This document shows positions 12,209-22,019 of a DNA stretch of 42,345 nucleotides, piece after piece. Each line of letters begins with the position of its first letter. The first letter of the stretch is position 1. The position numbers and the translations under genes are program-made. This DNA is from Synergistaceae bacterium (GTDB taxonomy: Bacteria; Synergistota; Synergistia; Synergistales; Aminobacteriaceae), in NCBI GenBank assembly GCA_017448795.1, contig JAFSKV010000079.1, positions 1-42,345 on the forward strand, given 5' to 3'. The notes beneath the pieces are model-generated. The model searched no databases and had not been told where the DNA came from. It saw only the letters and a list, made by a program, of their open reading frames with translations.

Positions 12209-12263
12209 GATAATCTCCTTGTGGGATAAATTTTGCGGTGAATCATAGCAGACTTTCACATGA

Positions 12264-12269
12264 TAGAAT
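12264..12269 (+). promoter_or_regulatory. Extended -10 promoter of the first sugar transferase
   Basis: TGATAGAAT: TG one base before the hexamer TAGAAT. It lies 54 bases before the ATG at 12323, somewhat further than in sister genes. No clear -35. The divergent slt operon must start in the same short intergenic region. Confidence 0.4.
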
Positions 12270-12322
12270 AATCACTCAAATCATCCCGCACATTTCACAG
12301 GAAGGAGCTTGACACAAGATTC

Positions 12323-13716
12323 ATGGCCGTGTATAATCGCACATCGCACATCGCCTGACCTATTGGCTGTTTTCCCTCACACAAATTCTCATTGACGCTT
12401 CACTCTGTCAGATATGCCTCCTCGTGATACCCTCGCCGCTAACTCATGAAGTCCGCGTATTCCTCACCGGCACAGCGCTTGCATGTCTCGCGTTCTACCG
12501 TCTCTACGGCTTCATGAACTGGACAGTCTGGGAAGAGACATCATCAGTCCTCAAATCCTGCCTCTTGACCCTCCTCATAGATATACTCTTCCTTTACGCC
12601 GGGAAATTCTCGCTCCCGTTATGGCGGGTGTCCGCGGCGGTCTCAGTCTTCGTGCCGCTGACACTTCTGACCCGGTACTTCCTGCGCGTGTCATTGTTCC
12701 GTCTGGGCTGGCTCATGAAGACGGTAATCATTCTCGGAGCGGGCGAGGCAGGGGAGCTTTTCGCCGGGAAAATATCCTCATCACCCTTCACGATTCGCAA
12801 GGCACTGTGCTTCCTTGACGATGACGAGTCGAAACAGGGCGCGGAGATTTCTGGCGTTCCTGTCGTGGGGAAGCTGTCAGATTTCGCGGACGTTCAGCGT
12901 GAGATTAGTGCTGACGAAGCAGTGATAGCAATTCCGACGGCATCACGTCAGGCACTCGCGGGAATCCTTAAGGCTGTCGAGGAGCATATAAGGACGGTGC
13001 TTTATGTGCCGGATATGTACATGCTTACGACTCTTGCGGCATCAATCGGGAATCTTGACGGTATGCCCGTGATCTCGTCGTCGCAGGGACTCCTGAATCC
13101 CGTGAATATCGCAGTGAAGACTGTAATCGACTACATAGGTGCGGCGGTAGCGTTCGCGTTTCTTTGGCCGTTAATGCTACTTGCGGTTCTTGCGATATGG
13201 ATTGAGGACGGGAGGCCGATATTCTTCGTTCAGGAAAGGGTTGGCTGGAAAGGTAAGCACTTCATGACGTACAAGTTCCGCTCGATGCACAAGAACGCTG
13301 ACGAAATCACCCGCGAGCTTTTCAGCGACCCGGAAATTTTCGCCGCCTACAAGCAGGGCGTGAAGCTCAAGGATGACCCCCGCCTCACCAAGACAGGAGC
13401 AATCCTCCGCAAGACCAGCATCGATGAGCTGCCCCAGCTGTTCAACGTCCTAAAGGGAGAAATGAGCCTAGTCGGACCGAGGCCGCTGATACAGAGTGAT
13501 GTAGATATGATTTACGGCGAGAGGTTCACGAAGAAGGTTTACGCCGCAAAGCCCGGGCTCACTGGGATATGGCAGGTCTCAGGACGGAGCGACCTTGACG
13601 CTGATTTCCGCCGGGAGATCAACTGCTACTACGTCCACAACTGGAGCGTCTGGCTCGACCTCGCAATCCTCATCAAGACTCCCCTCGCCGTAATCTCGCA
13701 CAAAGGCGCGTACTAG
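12323..13716 (+). CDS. Undecaprenyl-phosphate sugar phosphotransferase (WbaP-like), frame currently OFF
   Basis: The family transfers a sugar 1-phosphate to undecaprenyl phosphate to start surface-glycan synthesis. The main frame has hydrophobic N-terminal helices, a Rossmann-like part ([16 protein letters not shown]) and the C-terminal bacterial sugar transferase domain ([47 protein letters not shown]). Similarity to its downstream paralogue runs up to about 12355, well before the first in-frame GTG at 12424, which lacks a ribosome site. The natural ATG at 12323, after AGGAAGGAG, is in another frame and stops after 11 codons. A 7-nt repeat at 12336-12354 lies between; one more unit would give a 466-residue protein (paralogue 456). 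It is probably phase-variable and switched off here; a sequencing error is the alternative. Confidence 0.8.
12336..12354 (+). repeat. 7-nt tandem repeat, 2.7 copies, in the 5' coding end of the sugar transferase
   Basis: ATCGCAC is repeated twice plus ATCGC (19 bases). Unit length is not a multiple of three, so gain of one unit or loss of two joins the ATG at 12323 to the main coding frame. This is the usual arrangement of a slipped-strand contingency locus, though the copy number is low. Confidence 0.75.
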
Positions 13717-13772: not shown

Positions 13773-15143
13773 ATGGCCGCTCTGAGACTCACATTTTCCG
13801 TTGTACAGTTCATCATTGACGCGGGGCTGTTCACGCTGTGCCTGTCAGTTTTCGGGGTAACGTCATCGTTCGAGACATGCGCGTTCCTCACGGGGACGGT
13901 CGCGGCGTTCTTCCTGTTCAGCTCAATGTACGGCTTCGGCAACTGGACGTTCTGGGACGAGACGAAGCAGTGTATGCGCTCGCTGCTCTATGCGTTCCTC
14001 GTGGGAGTCCTCTTCCTTTACGCCGGGAAAAACACGGTCTCGCTCTTCCGGGTGATGCTGGCGTTCGGGCTGTTCGTGCCGCTGTGCTTGGCGTTGCGGT
14101 GGGCGGTCAGGCGGGCATTGTTCGGTCTGGGCCTCTTGTCGACAAGCGTAATCATTCTCGGAGCTGGCGAGGCCGGGGAAATTTTCGCGCGCAACATCAC
14201 CGACTCCCCCTTCATTGCGCGTAAGGTGCTGGGATTCCTTGACGATGACGAGTCGAAACAGGGCATGACGATTTCGGGCGTTCCAGTTTTGGGGAGGCTG
14301 TCTGACTTCGAGCGCGTGCAGGGTGAGCTTGACGCTGACGAGGTGATTATCGCGATTCCCACAGCGTCGAGGCGTGAACTGTCGGGGATGCTTGACCGTG
14401 TCGAGGAGCTTTCACGGAGGGTGTTGTACGTGCCGGATATGTACATGCTTACGACTATGACGGCTGAAATGAGGAGCATTGACGGAATGCCAGTGATTAC
14501 GGCCTCGCAGGGCTTGCTGAATCCAGTCAACAGGGCGGTGAAGTCAGTTGTTGACTACGTCGGGGGACTGGCAGCGTTCCTTATTGCTTCTCCGCTGATG
14601 ATCTGGGCGACGTGGAAGATAAAGCGCGAGGACGGGGGAAGCATTTTGTTCCGTCATGGCCGTATCGGTCAGAATCTGCGTCCGTTCAAGCTGTTCAAGT
14701 TCCGTACTATGGTCGAGAACGCCGAGGAGATTCTCCGCGAGATGCTGAAGGATGATGAGAAGAGGCGAGAGTTTGAGGAGGCCTTCAAGTTCAAGGACGA
14801 CAAGAGGATAACCCAGATAGGCCACAAGCTGAGACGTACGAGCATTGACGAGCTTCCGCAGCTGTTCAACGTCTTCCGCGGGGAAATGAGCCTGGTCGGG
14901 CCGCGCCCGATTGTGCAGAAGGAGATTGAGCTGTATTACGGCTACAGGACAGCCCGGCAGATATTCCGGGTGAAGCCGGGGATGACGGGGTTCTGGCAGG
15001 TCTCCGGGCGCAACGACGTGAAGGACTACCAGACCCGGATCGATTTCGACCTGTACTACATCCACAACTGGAGCGTGTGGCTGGACATCATCATTATGAT
15101 TCGGACGGTCAGGGCGGTCTTCAGGGGGTCGGGGGCATATTAG
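13773..15143 (+). CDS. Undecaprenyl-phosphate sugar phosphotransferase (WbaP-like), intact paralogue
   Basis: A 456-residue membrane enzyme closely related to the gene just upstream. Four to five N-terminal membrane helices are followed by a Rossmann-like region ([16 protein letters not shown], about residues 125-140), a further helix near 270, and the catalytic PF02397-type domain with [43 protein letters not shown] and KPGMTGFWQVSGRND. It transfers a sugar phosphate (galactose, glucose or a related sugar) to undecaprenyl phosphate. The start is ATG 13773 after AGGAAGGGAG; a GTG at 13725 falls in the promoter and is rejected. Unlike its neighbour it has no repeat after the ATG and is in frame, so this copy should be expressed. 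Sugar specificity cannot be read from sequence. Confidence 0.92.
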   Translation: MAALRLTFSVVQFIIDAGLFTLCLSVFGVTSSFETCAFLTGTVAAFFLFSSMYGFGNWTFWDETKQCMRSLLYAFLVGVLFLYAGKNTVSLFRVMLAFGLFVPLCLALRWAVRRALFGLGLLSTSVIILGAGEAGEIFARNITDSPFIARKVLGFLDDDESKQGMTISGVPVLGRLSDFERVQGELDADEVIIAIPTASRRELSGMLDRVEELSRRVLYVPDMYMLTTMTAEMRSIDGMPVITASQGLLNPVNRAVKSVVDYVGGLAAFLIASPLMIWATWKIKREDGGSILFRHGRIGQNLRPFKLFKFRTMVENAEEILREMLKDDEKRREFEEAFKFKDDKRITQIGHKLRRTSIDELPQLFNVFRGEMSLVGPRPIVQKEIELYYGYRTARQIFRVKPGMTGFWQVSGRNDVKDYQTRIDFDLYYIHNWSVWLDIIIMIRTVRAVFRGSGAY

Positions 15144-15160
15144 GACGGGAGGGGCTGTGC

Positions 15161-15166
15161 TATAAT
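15161..15166 (+). promoter_or_regulatory. Extended -10 promoter of the first pyruvyl-transferase gene
   Basis: TGCTATAAT, with TG one base before a perfect TATAAT, 41 bases before the ATG at 15207. No -35 recognised. Confidence 0.6.
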
Positions 15167-15206
15167 CTCACGCAAATTCAGCAGGAAAGGGCTTGACAAA
15201 CGCGAA

Positions 15207-16396
15207 ATGACCGCCATAATTGACACGACACGACACCGCACCCTCATGCGCAAAATTCCCGCAAGCGAGCCTTAATCGTAACCATATACCCCGATGAAAA
15301 CAGCCGCAACTTAGGCAACACCCTCCAGCATTACGCCCTCCAAGAAGCAACTAAATCACTGGGCTATGACACCGCAAGCCTCATATGCCCCATGCTTGGC
15401 TTCAGCGCGCCAGCCCGTTTTGAGCAACGGATGAGACTGGCCGCAAAATTCATGCTGGCTGTTCTCGGCTCAAAGAAATACCGCCACATGTTGCGGAAAA
15501 AAGCCGCCCCCTCCAATGAGCATATACAGGCATGTGAGATGCGGGGAAAAATCTTCGCGGACTTCTATGATGAATACATTGACGGCATTATCCGCTCGAC
15601 TTACAGGGAGGTGCTTGGCAGCGGGGGGAAATTCTCAGCCGGTTTTGACCGCGTCATAGCCGGAAGCGACCAGATATGGAGCAAAGCTATCGTCATTGTC
15701 TCTGAGGCACTGCGCTTCTTCTACCTCATGTGGGCGGAAAAAGAGAAGCGGGTCTGCTACGCTCCGAGTTTCGGTGACAAAAGGCCGCTCAGGATTGAAT
15801 TTCCCCTGCACAGGAAAGGCCTCGGCGGATTCGCCCGCCTGTCTTGCCGGGAAAAGTCAGGATGCGGCTTCATCAGGGAGCTTGCCGGGCGTGACGCGGA
15901 GCTTGTGCTTGACCCTACGCTTCTGCTGACGGCGGAACAGTGGCGGGAAATTGCGCGGAAGCCTGAGTGTGGTGTGCCGGAACATTACGTCCTCCGTTAC
16001 TGCTGGGGGTCTGACTCGTGGCATGACGAACAGCGCGAGCTTGCGGGCGGAAGGGAGATCATCGACGTTCTGAGCCGCGGACAGGAATACTATTCTCATG
16101 TCGGGCCAAGAGAGTTCATCTGGCTGGTTGACCACGCGGATTTTGTGTTCTCCGAGTCATTTCACGGCACTGCCTTTGCGGTCAACTTGGGGAAAAACTT
16201 TGTCTCGTTCATGCGCGAGAGGAAGGACGACGGGCGGATAGGAAGCCTCCTGAGCTCGGCCGGGATTGCCGGGCATGTCTTCGGGCCGGGGATGAAGTCA
16301 GTGCCTGATGATGTGGACTATGACGGTGTCAGGCGGAAACTTGACGGCCTCCGCGCTGAGTCTATGCAGTATCTCCGTGAGTGCCTGAAGTGCTGA
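15207..16396 (+). CDS. Polysaccharide pyruvyl transferase family protein, frame currently OFF
   Basis: Family proteins add pyruvate ketals (or act as related transferases) to surface glycans. The main frame carries AGSDQIWS, VCYAPSFGD, RLSCREKS, LVLDPTLLLTAEQW and SESFHGTAFAVNLGKNF, all hallmarks of PF04230. In this frame, conserved sequence matching the N-terminus of the downstream paralogue (RKRALIVTIYPDENSRNLGN) lies upstream of the first in-frame ATG at 15392. The natural start, ATG 15207 after AGGAAAGG, is in another frame and stops after about 22 codons. Between them GACAC is repeated three times (15222-15236). Two copies would restore one frame of 394 residues. The gene is therefore probably phase-variable and off in this sequence; acceptor sugar unknown. 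Confidence 0.8.
15222..15236 (+). repeat. Pentanucleotide repeat (GACAC)3 in the 5' coding end
   Basis: Three perfect copies of GACAC, five codons after the ATG at 15207. With 2 or 5 copies the ATG is in frame with the pyruvyl-transferase domain; with 3 copies it is not. This fits a slipped-strand phase-variation switch. Confidence 0.8.
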
Positions 16397-16456: not shown

Positions 16457-17584
16457 ATGACCGCCCAGCAATCCCGAAAACGCAGAATCCTCCTCGTAAC
16501 ACTATACGGCAGCTACAACTACGGCAACCTTCTCCAGAGATACGCACTCACACGGACACTTGAGGGTTTCAGCTTCGAAGTTGCGCACCTATGCTGTGAT
16601 GATGCCTCCCCGCTCGCTGCCAGGGTCAAAGCCTGCCTGAAGCTCCCGGTGAAATACGTCCTTGCGCTGTTGGGAGTCGGGAAATTCCGCAGGCAGTTCC
16701 AGCAAATGAAAGCTGACATTCCCCGCGCTCAACGCTTCACACAATGGCAGGACACCTTCACCCCCGCCAAAATCTTCATGTCATACTCAGGCGCGCTGAA
16801 ATCACAATGGGACGGGTACGCCCTCGCAGTAACCGGGAGCGACCAGGTCTGGCACAACTGGAGCAAATCCCCCGGCGAGCTGGCATATTACTACCTTGAG
16901 TTCATGCCACGCGGAAAACGGGTGTGTTACGCCCCCAGCTTCGGCTTCTCACAGTTCCCCCAGCGGGACATTGAGCTTCACCGCAAAGGCCTCGAAGGGT
17001 TCGGCCGCCTGTCTTGCCGCGAACAGGAAATGCAGGGGATGATACGCTCGCTCACAGGGCAGAACGCCGAGCTAGTCCTAGACCCCACACTCCTGCTCAC
17101 CCCCGAACAGTGGCGCGAAGCCTCGTCCAAGCCCGAATACCCCGTCCCGGAACGCTGCGTGCTGTGCTACTTCCTCGGCGAAATCACACCAGAGTACCAG
17201 CGGGCAATCCATGACATGGCCGGAGGGCTTCCCGTCATCAACATTAACGACATTGACGACATCACGCACTACGTCACGCACCCGGGCGAGTTCGTGTATC
17301 TTGTTGACCGGGCGGATTTCGTCTGCACCGACTCATTTCACGGGACTGCGTTCTCGGTGAATTTCGGGAAAAACTTCCTGGCGTTCAGGCGGTCTCAGGC
17401 GGGAATGGAGGACATGTTCGGGCGGATTGAGAGCATCCTGGACAGCACGGGAATCACTGGCCACGTCTACGAACACGGCATGACTGCGAGGCCGGATATG
17501 CCCGACTATGATTCTGTGGACGGGAAACTTGAGGCTTTGCGGGAAAAATCTATGAAGTATCTCCGCGAGTGCCTGAAGGTCTAG
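16457..17584 (+). CDS. Polysaccharide pyruvyl transferase family protein, intact paralogue
   Basis: A 375-residue soluble protein related to the gene upstream. It opens with RRILLVTLYGSYNYGNLLQRYAL, then has TGSDQVWHNW, VCYAPSFGF, RLSCREQEMQGMI, LVLDPTLLLTPEQW and CTDSFHGTAFSVNFGKNF, the PF04230 pattern. Members decorate exopolysaccharide or cell-wall glycans with ketal-linked pyruvate; some related proteins have other roles, so the exact reaction is inferred. The ATG at 16457 follows GAGAAAGGA; a TTG at 16418 overlaps the promoter and is rejected. There is no repeat after the ATG and the frame is whole, so this copy should be active while the upstream paralogue is off. It is the last gene of the plus-strand glycan cluster and converges on nrdJ. 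Confidence 0.9.
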   Translation: MTAQQSRKRRILLVTLYGSYNYGNLLQRYALTRTLEGFSFEVAHLCCDDASPLAARVKACLKLPVKYVLALLGVGKFRRQFQQMKADIPRAQRFTQWQDTFTPAKIFMSYSGALKSQWDGYALAVTGSDQVWHNWSKSPGELAYYYLEFMPRGKRVCYAPSFGFSQFPQRDIELHRKGLEGFGRLSCREQEMQGMIRSLTGQNAELVLDPTLLLTPEQWREASSKPEYPVPERCVLCYFLGEITPEYQRAIHDMAGGLPVININDIDDITHYVTHPGEFVYLVDRADFVCTDSFHGTAFSVNFGKNFLAFRRSQAGMEDMFGRIESILDSTGITGHVYEHGMTARPDMPDYDSVDGKLEALREKSMKYLRECLKV

Positions 17585-20252: not shown

Positions 20253-21953
20253 TTACTTGCTGAATTTCTGGTAGATCTTCACGAGGCGCGCAAAGAGTCC
20301 GTTCTTCGGGTCAATCTTGGCGTTGCCGAACTCAAAGCGGAATGTCTCCGGGTCTTCTGCCCTGAACGAGAACGACGGCACAGAATATTCAGCCGTGAGA
20401 ACGTCATTCACAGCGTCGGCGATTTCCCCGAAGCCGAGCATCTTCGCCATCGGAAGAAGCATCGCAAGGACTCCGTTCTCGTCATCCGTTATCCAGCCAC
20501 GTATTGCCTCGAAGTCAATCCATAATGCCGCGATTCCTTTCTCTTTCACGAGGGACTCCAGCGCGGGCTTAAGGACAGGTTTACCGCCGAGATTCTGGAG
20601 CTCCGCAAAGTTTATGCTGAGAGTCCCGCCCCTGTCCTGAATGAAGCATGATACAGGGCTGAGTGATGAGTCGAGCTGTAACACTCCTTCCTGTACTTTC
20701 TGGAAATGGGGGGATTTCGTGAGGCGGGCAAAAATTTTTCCGGCAGCATCCTTCATCCCTGTCTGAGATATATACAGCGCGGGAATCTTGAAGCCCTCGT
20801 ACGTTACGCTGTCATTCACGGTTACAGAGAAAGGCCCGGTGAAGAATGATGAAAACTCGTCTTCATTTATCCCGAAACGAACACGCATCTGCCTGACGAG
20901 TTCCTTCCAGAAATCCGCGCCGTCCTTCTGGTTCTTTATGGCCGAAAGCGTCATATACCCGCCCAGCGCGAAAAGAGGGCTCTTTGACCCGCCGGGATTC
21001 ATGTATGACCCCTTTACCGGGACTCTTTTGTCGGAAATATTCGCCGAGTATTCCGCCTTCATGGCCTCCTTGAGGTTCACGTGGACTGACATCGCGAACT
21101 TGTCCGGCTCGCTCGTGAAGCCAAGCTCAAAGTTAAGCGGCTTGTCGAAAATCTCAGCTATCTTGTCGGCTGAATCAAGGGCGTTTTCCGTGTCGAGCTT
21201 GTCAAGCGTCTTGTAGTCAAGGTGAATGTAGGCAAAATTCTTGTCGCTGAATTTCCGTGCCTCCTTTGCGAAAAGCCGGGCTTCCTCGACGTTAAGGGCG
21301 TTGCGCGAAGCTATAAGCTGTTCTGCTGACATGGCAGCGACGATCATGCCGCCTTCAGTCTTCAGGAATAATTCATTGTCTATGCGGTAAGAGCCGTCTT
21401 TGAGCTTTTCGGCCTTTATCATGGTCTGCGCGATGGCTGTTAATGGGTTGTCATTGCCGAGAATCAATTTCGCGAAGTCCGTATCTTCTGCCGTTCCGTC
21501 AGCAATCTTCCTCACAGTCCCGGCCATGCTTGAATCAACCGTGAATGCCATCTGGAAGAACGGAGGCCGCTTCTTGTCCGGGTCTTCCGTGCCGATTATG
21601 ACTGCCGCTGACTTGATGGGAGTTTTTTCCGCGAACGCCCGGATGAACTCGACAGCCCCCATGATGTCGCTTGAGTGTTTCGACTTGAGTATCAGGGGCA
21701 TGAAGATGTCGATGTTTTCCTCCGACACAAGCCATCTCAGGAACGCGCCCGTGTCCTCAAGCCTCAGCACGCCGTAAACAGAATCTTCCGCCCGTGACAC
21801 AAGAGCGTTTTCCGGGAGAAGCCCGGACTCTGAAGTCTGCGGTGAAGGAAGCAGCTTCGACGGGAGCAGATCCCCCAGGCTGAGCGCCGAGGCCGCGGAC
21901 GATGAGAGCATTGCCGCTATAACCGCGAGGCACAAAACTTTTCTCATTCTCAC
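20253..21953 (-). CDS. Large exported protein of unknown function
   Basis: A 566-residue protein with a clear signal peptide (RMRKVLCLAVIAAMLSSSAASA). The start chosen is GTG 21953, ten bases after AGGAGG; ATG 21947 is the alternative, and the longer open frame to 22013 runs through a terminator. The mature protein alternates beta-rich stretches and helices and has no motif I recognise; phrases such as LVSRAEDSVYGVLRLEDTGAFLRWL, GFTSEPDKFAMSVHVNL and a C-terminal FRFEFGNAKIDPKNGLF suggest a multi-domain periplasmic or surface protein. No transmembrane anchor or lipobox is evident. It sits alone between tpiA and nrdJ with terminators on both sides, so context gives no function. Confidence 0.8.
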   Translation of the reverse strand: MRMRKVLCLAVIAAMLSSSAASALSLGDLLPSKLLPSPQTSESGLLPENALVSRAEDSVYGVLRLEDTGAFLRWLVSEENIDIFMPLILKSKHSSDIMGAVEFIRAFAEKTPIKSAAVIIGTEDPDKKRPPFFQMAFTVDSSMAGTVRKIADGTAEDTDFAKLILGNDNPLTAIAQTMIKAEKLKDGSYRIDNELFLKTEGGMIVAAMSAEQLIASRNALNVEEARLFAKEARKFSDKNFAYIHLDYKTLDKLDTENALDSADKIAEIFDKPLNFELGFTSEPDKFAMSVHVNLKEAMKAEYSANISDKRVPVKGSYMNPGGSKSPLFALGGYMTLSAIKNQKDGADFWKELVRQMRVRFGINEDEFSSFFTGPFSVTVNDSVTYEGFKIPALYISQTGMKDAAGKIFARLTKSPHFQKVQEGVLQLDSSLSPVSCFIQDRGGTLSINFAELQNLGGKPVLKPALESLVKEKGIAALWIDFEAIRGWITDDENGVLAMLLPMAKMLGFGEIADAVNDVLTAEYSVPSFSFRAEDPETFRFEFGNAKIDPKNGLFARLVKIYQKFSK

Positions 21954-21979
21954 TGTGAATATTCCTCCTTTGGTCGACA

Positions 21980-22010
21980 AAAATACCCCCCCGCGTTCAC
22001 AGCAGGAGGG
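21980..22010 (-). terminator. Terminator of tpiA
   Basis: Minus-strand CCCTCCTGC pairs with GCGGGGGGG (two G-T wobbles) and is followed by TATTTTTG, ten bases after the tpiA stop. Confidence 0.75.
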
Positions 22011-22019
22011 CATGACAAA

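Follow-up and report, generated by a model that had tools for sequence, protein, structure and literature searches.

A probably phase-variable initiating sugar transferase gene of a Synergistaceae bacterium and the genus-wide family of repeat arrays, nearly all beside a putative promoter, to which it belongs

Analysis of a 42,345-nucleotide stretch of a Synergistaceae genome (referred to as the window; its own assembly comprises 2.54 Mb in 86 contigs and is 98% complete) indicates that the gene at 12323–13716, encoding an initiating sugar transferase, is very probably a phase-variable (contingency) gene and one of many members of a genus-wide phasome. In this assembly it is found in its OFF form, a short array of heptamers separating the start codon from a coding body in another frame. 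The array abuts P2, a putative promoter that accompanies nearly every array of the family. The original prediction of a switch at this one locus holds; what it missed is the family of many such loci, nearly each with an embedded P2.

Two switch loci within the window

The elements of the first locus are listed below; at both loci of the window, P1 and the Shine-Dalgarno sequence were read by eye at base level.

12261–12269, plus strand: P1, ordinary upstream promoter with an extended -10 (TGA-TAGAAT), read by eye from the sequence
12299–12307, plus strand: Shine-Dalgarno sequence AGGAAGGAG, read by eye from the sequence
12309–12337, plus strand: P2, predicted consensus sigma-70 element TTGACA-N17-TATAAT (12/12 match), which spans the start codon and borders directly on the array
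12323–12325, plus strand: start codon ATG (ATGGCC), a start common to array-less homologues, opening 11 codons in the assembly
12336–12354, plus strand: switch array ATCGCAC x2.7, perfect, 7-nt unit, without stops in all three frames
12355–13716, plus strand: body of the initiating sugar transferase, out of frame, CoA_binding_3 and Bac_transf (Pfam), WbaP/WcaJ-like
13773–15143, plus strand: transferase paralogue with an ordinary ATG start, without array and without P2, 456 aa

The ATG at 12323 sits in the spacer of P2, and the final two bases of the P2 -10 box already belong to the array. As had been proposed, AGGAAGGAG and this ATG open a frame of only 11 codons, and the array at 12336–12354, a perfect one, stands between the start and the main frame. 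Similarity to orthologues begins, by tblastn, at 12355, which is the first residue tested. The frame of the Bac_transf domain is open from 12337 to 13716. Its first ATG, GTG or TTG is the GTG at 12424, which has no Shine-Dalgarno sequence and lies within the conserved region; a conserved alternative start in the main frame was looked for and none was found. A programmed frameshift or an alternative start was rejected as an explanation, the main frame having no start equipped with a Shine-Dalgarno sequence and conservation beginning upstream of the GTG at 12424. One extra unit would join the start to the body in a frame of (13716-12323+1+7)/3 = 467 codons, in agreement with the 466 residues calculated earlier, the downstream paralogue counting 456. 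The body, open for 459 codons and 67–77% identical to orthologues in several species, matches PF02397 (E=2.8e-62) and PF13727 (E=7.7e-9), both above cut-off, with the Bac_transf domain C-terminal and the CoA_binding_3-type domain N-terminal, as in initiating transferases of the WbaP/WcaJ type.

The reading of the locus as an OFF phase-variation switch of an initiating glycan transferase is supported by comparison with a paralogue on contig C55 of the same genome (L016), which is 73% identical, carries exactly one more unit (ATCGCAC x3.7) and is in frame over 464 aa, that is, predicted to be ON. A copy number fixed among related genomes was looked for too, and the copy number was found to vary between species: the orthologues, one genome per species being compared, differ by whole units or have no array. 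ATCGCAC is present in 8.7 copies in G022 and G011 and in 5.7 copies in G028, other units are found in G015 (CAATCGC x8.1) and G010 (CGCTCAA x6.4), and a plain in-frame ATG without array in G040, G041, G014 and G002; these copy numbers come from assembled metagenome genomes and may be off. Named records matching these loci are Synergistaceae genomes, mostly of goat gut, plus uncultured Fretibacterium. Taken alone, the heptamer in 2.7 copies is weak, TRF listing several two-copy repeats of similar score within the window, and it becomes significant because of the 3.7-copy paralogue, the orthologues and the genus-wide family. This comparison across species and paralogues leads us to infer that the gene switches between ON and OFF; at 2.7 units the array is short and its switching may be rare.

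According to the mechanism that we propose, P1 and the Shine-Dalgarno sequence would load ribosomes on the ATG at 12323, and these would read through the 7-nt array, stop-free in every frame. Slippage adding or removing a unit would change the reading frame, so that one copy number in three would join the start to the transferase body (ON) and the other two would end early (OFF). This assembly would thus represent the OFF form and the C55 paralogue the ON form.

A second locus of like build, 2.9 kb downstream of the first, has three copies of GACAC ahead of a polysaccharide pyruvyl transferase and is likewise OFF. It consists of the following elements.

15158–15166, plus strand: P1, TGCTATAAT, extended -10, read by eye
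15183–15191, plus strand: Shine-Dalgarno sequence AGGAAAGGG, read by eye
15193–15220, plus strand: P2, TTGACA-N16-CATAAT, 11/12 match
15207–15209, plus strand: start ATG (ATGACCGCC), opening 22 codons only
15222–15236, plus strand: switch array GACAC x3, tandem repeat
15275–16396, plus strand: body of the polysaccharide pyruvyl transferase, out of frame, PF04230 (E=7.7e-23)
16457–17584, plus strand: array-less pyruvyl transferase paralogue, PF04230 (E=5.7e-24)

The ATGACCGCC start is the same as that of the array-less paralogue at 16457, and in G011 the orthologue of this locus (L076), with 4.6 copies, reads in frame. Elsewhere in the window, a 586-aa ORF on the minus strand (20253–22013), adjoining triosephosphate isomerase, is without any Pfam match. 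There was no Rfam match and no tRNA within the window.

Arrays throughout the genus

We collected 111 promoter-like sites, 71 of which are directly followed by an array, as compared with 2 of 95 when the position 200 nt further on is considered. The 71 distinct array sites come from about 22 species of the genus. Their periods are 7 nt (n=37), 5 nt (n=32), 8 nt (n=1) and 13 nt (n=1); no array of period 4, 6, 9, 10, 11 or 12 is found among them, and no unit length is a multiple of 3. None of the 32 units of 5–8 nt contains a stop in any of the three sense frames, whereas after shuffling of their letters a mean of 28.0 units are free of stops and all 32 are so in 0.5% of cases. Automatic frame scoring called 15 sites ON and 45 OFF, some sites with leader peptides being scored OFF. 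The tandem repeats are located in the 5' coding end, and their copy numbers give both in-frame and out-of-frame genes.

In the genome to which the window belongs, the pattern TTGACA-N15-18-ATAAT has 24 matches against one for the reversed pattern, about 15 of these matches being directly followed by tandem units. When 427 kb of its contigs were scanned without bias, L098, L104 and L116 were added, whose hexamers are slightly weaker; since the scan covered these 427 kb, the locus count is a minimum, and at least a dozen such switches can be attributed to this genome. Of 43 genomes of the genus, 21 have the module pattern AAAGGANNTTGACA-N-ATAAT. Among 38 genomes of the family from outside the genus it was found in only one, as an ordinary-looking promoter without array.

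The genes behind the arrays encode, among others, glycosyltransferases (GT2, GT4, GT61), acyltransferase, methyltransferase, sugar-associated ATP-grasp, UDP-sugar dehydrogenase, Stealth and sulfotransferase proteins, together with several proteins without Pfam match; those that could be identified mostly make or modify surface glycans. In 7 of the 71 sites (L010, L024, L130, L145, L155, L184, L079) the contig ends inside the array or at most 15 nt from it, which is suggestive of mixed lengths in the sampled population but also fits repeats shared between loci.

At L116 (8980–9110, G000:C41) and at L153 the array lies inside a short leader peptide. Reading of L116 by hand places the leader stop, at 3.7 copies, over the ATG of the next glycosyltransferase (ATGA), an arrangement suggestive of switching by translational coupling. 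At L120 (G002:C9:150542) a consensus promoter is directly followed by about 5 copies of a 13-nt unit, with a separate Shine-Dalgarno sequence behind them, possibly as a leader-type switch. The heptamer arrays of L104 (15758–15782, AGTGGCT) and L111 (3107–3146, CACTACC/CACTAAC) are intergenic and have no promoter element; they look like one repeat family on opposite strands. A long array, GTTCGCA x9.3, is found at L022 (G000:C81:17272–17300), about 0.25 kb downstream of a match to the MutS domain of mutS (G000:C81:16482–17036).

The putative promoter P2 and its possible role

The array starts at most 4 nt from the end of the -10 box in 70 of the 71 sites, with TTGACA 16–18 nt upstream. In order to avoid circularity, we also considered loci chosen only by protein similarity: sufficient sequence upstream was available for 21 array-bearing 5' ends, and in 17 of them a hexamer pair with a spacing of 16–18 nt scores at least 10/12. 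Repeat-less homologues score at most 9/12, the three exceptions being the window locus itself or short or remnant arrays. Moreover, within the 427 kb of contigs scanned, six of nine non-triplet arrays abut such a pair, as against 0.2% of random positions. A chance match to TTGACA/TATAAT was rejected, in view of the 24 matches against one for the reversed pattern, about 15 of them with arrays, and of the agreement with the similarity-chosen loci.

In the similarity-chosen set the information content amounts to 1.2–2.0 bits per position for TTGACA and 0.5–2.0 bits for the -10 box, where A2 and T6 are invariant as in the sigma-70 pattern; all hexamer positions except position 3 of the -10 box carry at least 1.1 bits, and the spacer 0.1–0.8 bits. 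The offset of the start codon after TTGACA varies from 0 to about 20 nt, so that it is the hexamer spacing that is conserved and not a peptide; the motif as by-product of a conserved N-terminal peptide was rejected on this ground. The same hexamers precede tRNA and rRNA genes of this genome. P2, with -35 and -10 hexamers at 16–18 nt and the usual base pattern, is accordingly a predicted sigma-70 promoter. In 48 of 71 sites the module is preceded, at a distance of about 25–60 nt, by a P1-type extended -10 (TGn followed by at least 5/6 of TATAAT), as against 1.1% of random positions, and a sequence resembling a Shine-Dalgarno lies at most 9 nt upstream of TTGACA in 67 of 71. With P1 and these sequences upstream of P2, the gene does not depend on P2 for start signals of its own. 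Transcripts from P2 would be predicted to begin about 7 nt after its -10 box and hence within the abutting array. Since P2 is found with arrays but not in homologues that lack repeats, a role connected with the array is the most likely one.

Our leading guess on this role, a tentative one, is that P2 acts as a mutation engine, in which initiation, melting and Mfd-type repair would drive the gain and loss of units. An active P2 would keep the array melted and transcribed and would thereby raise slippage, such that even very short arrays (3–9 units, of repair-resistant length) might switch at useful rates and units might change frequently within a strain. Mfd and MutS are both encoded in this genome. 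Slippage loops of 5 nt or more exceed what MutS corrects well, which would explain the absence of 4-nt units; units of a length divisible by 3 would leave the frame unchanged, and their absence would be explained as well.

An action of P2 on expression instead of mutation, bound RNA polymerase blocking or tuning transcription from P1, is unlikely. Perfect consensus promoters can release polymerase slowly, and P1 and P2 are found together in 48 of 71 sites, both of which points speak for such a roadblock; however, it leaves unexplained why homologues of these genes without repeats lack P2 and why the array starts so close to the -10 box. We consider it quite unlikely that P2 is functionless and its hexamers shared by descent, the whole block from Shine-Dalgarno sequence to array being a cassette copied between genes. 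Such copying of 5' blocks does happen, as is shown by L116 and L153, where ATCGCAC arrays whose flanks are similar stand before different genes, but common descent does not account for hexamers that are nearly invariant around an almost random spacer, for start codons at such different offsets, or for the many different units found behind one and the same element. That TTGACA-N17-TATAAT only looks like a promoter and is the site of another DNA-binding protein, for example a duplication-provoking enzyme, is very unlikely: TTGACA is indeed more invariant than in most promoters, but the -10 box is of the usual sigma-70 kind, with invariant A2 and T6 and a free position 3, the spacing is 16–18 nt, and tRNA and rRNA genes of this genome use the same pair.

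Two further explanations question the frame switch itself. If P2 were the gene's real promoter and the repeats its 5' leader, translation would begin at a downstream start and the frame would be irrelevant. P2 is the strongest consensus in the region and the 13-nt array of L120 lies between a consensus promoter and a separate Shine-Dalgarno sequence, yet the explanation is highly improbable, given that the units are stop-free in all sense frames, that in 67 of 71 sites the start codon and the Shine-Dalgarno sequence precede P2 or fall within it, that the frame of several ON cases runs unbroken from the ATG upstream, and that in the present gene conservation starts before the first GTG, in a main frame without an equipped start. 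Least probable is a decaying pseudogene, broken by a one-off duplication and incapable of switching, as might be suspected from the OFF state with only 2.7 units and the related array-less paralogue directly downstream, but not from a body open for 459 codons and well conserved in several species; moreover, sister species have long whole-unit arrays at the corresponding position, and some of the relatives are in frame.

Known contingency loci and biological meaning

The frame switch preferred here resembles the contingency loci of Haemophilus, Neisseria and Campylobacter, in which short tandem units of a length not divisible by 3 are located in the 5' coding end of surface-glycan genes and the copy number sets ON and OFF. 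It differs from them in its host, Synergistaceae of the ruminant gut, in its units of 5 and 7 nt, not 1 or 4, and in the combination of many units in one architecture with a consensus promoter abutting nearly each array. Units of 5 and 7 nt are also found in H. influenzae hsdM, hmg and hmw1A/hmw2A, where low-copy arrays can switch; indeed, hsdM, with four pentamer units, (GACGA)4, switches at a high rate (PMC2651432). Of these, hsdM and hmg are frame switches, as proposed for the present loci, and are described without an array-tied promoter, whereas the hmw heptamers sit in the promoter region and tune transcription (PMC2651432). Another very short tandem repeat, the 9-bp direct repeat of gudB in B. 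subtilis, disappears at a high apparent frequency, which is largely due to selection, and Mfd takes part in the loss; unlike the present arrays, it concerns one locus, a unit that is a multiple of 3 and no embedded promoter (PMC3681913). Both gudB and hsdM may be regarded as partial precedents for slippage driven by P2.

Literature searches combining phase variation with Fretibacterium found nothing, and those with Synergistetes or Synergistes nothing describing such switches. The arrays point to an extensive set of phase-variable genes in a gut lineage that is little studied and mostly uncultured, and for which no such set is described in the literature found. If P2 controls the mutation rate of the arrays, the role of transcription initiation in contingency-locus switching would be directly testable. 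The implication for these rumen bacteria is that their sugar coats would not be uniform within a population, with consequences for phage attack and for contact with the host.
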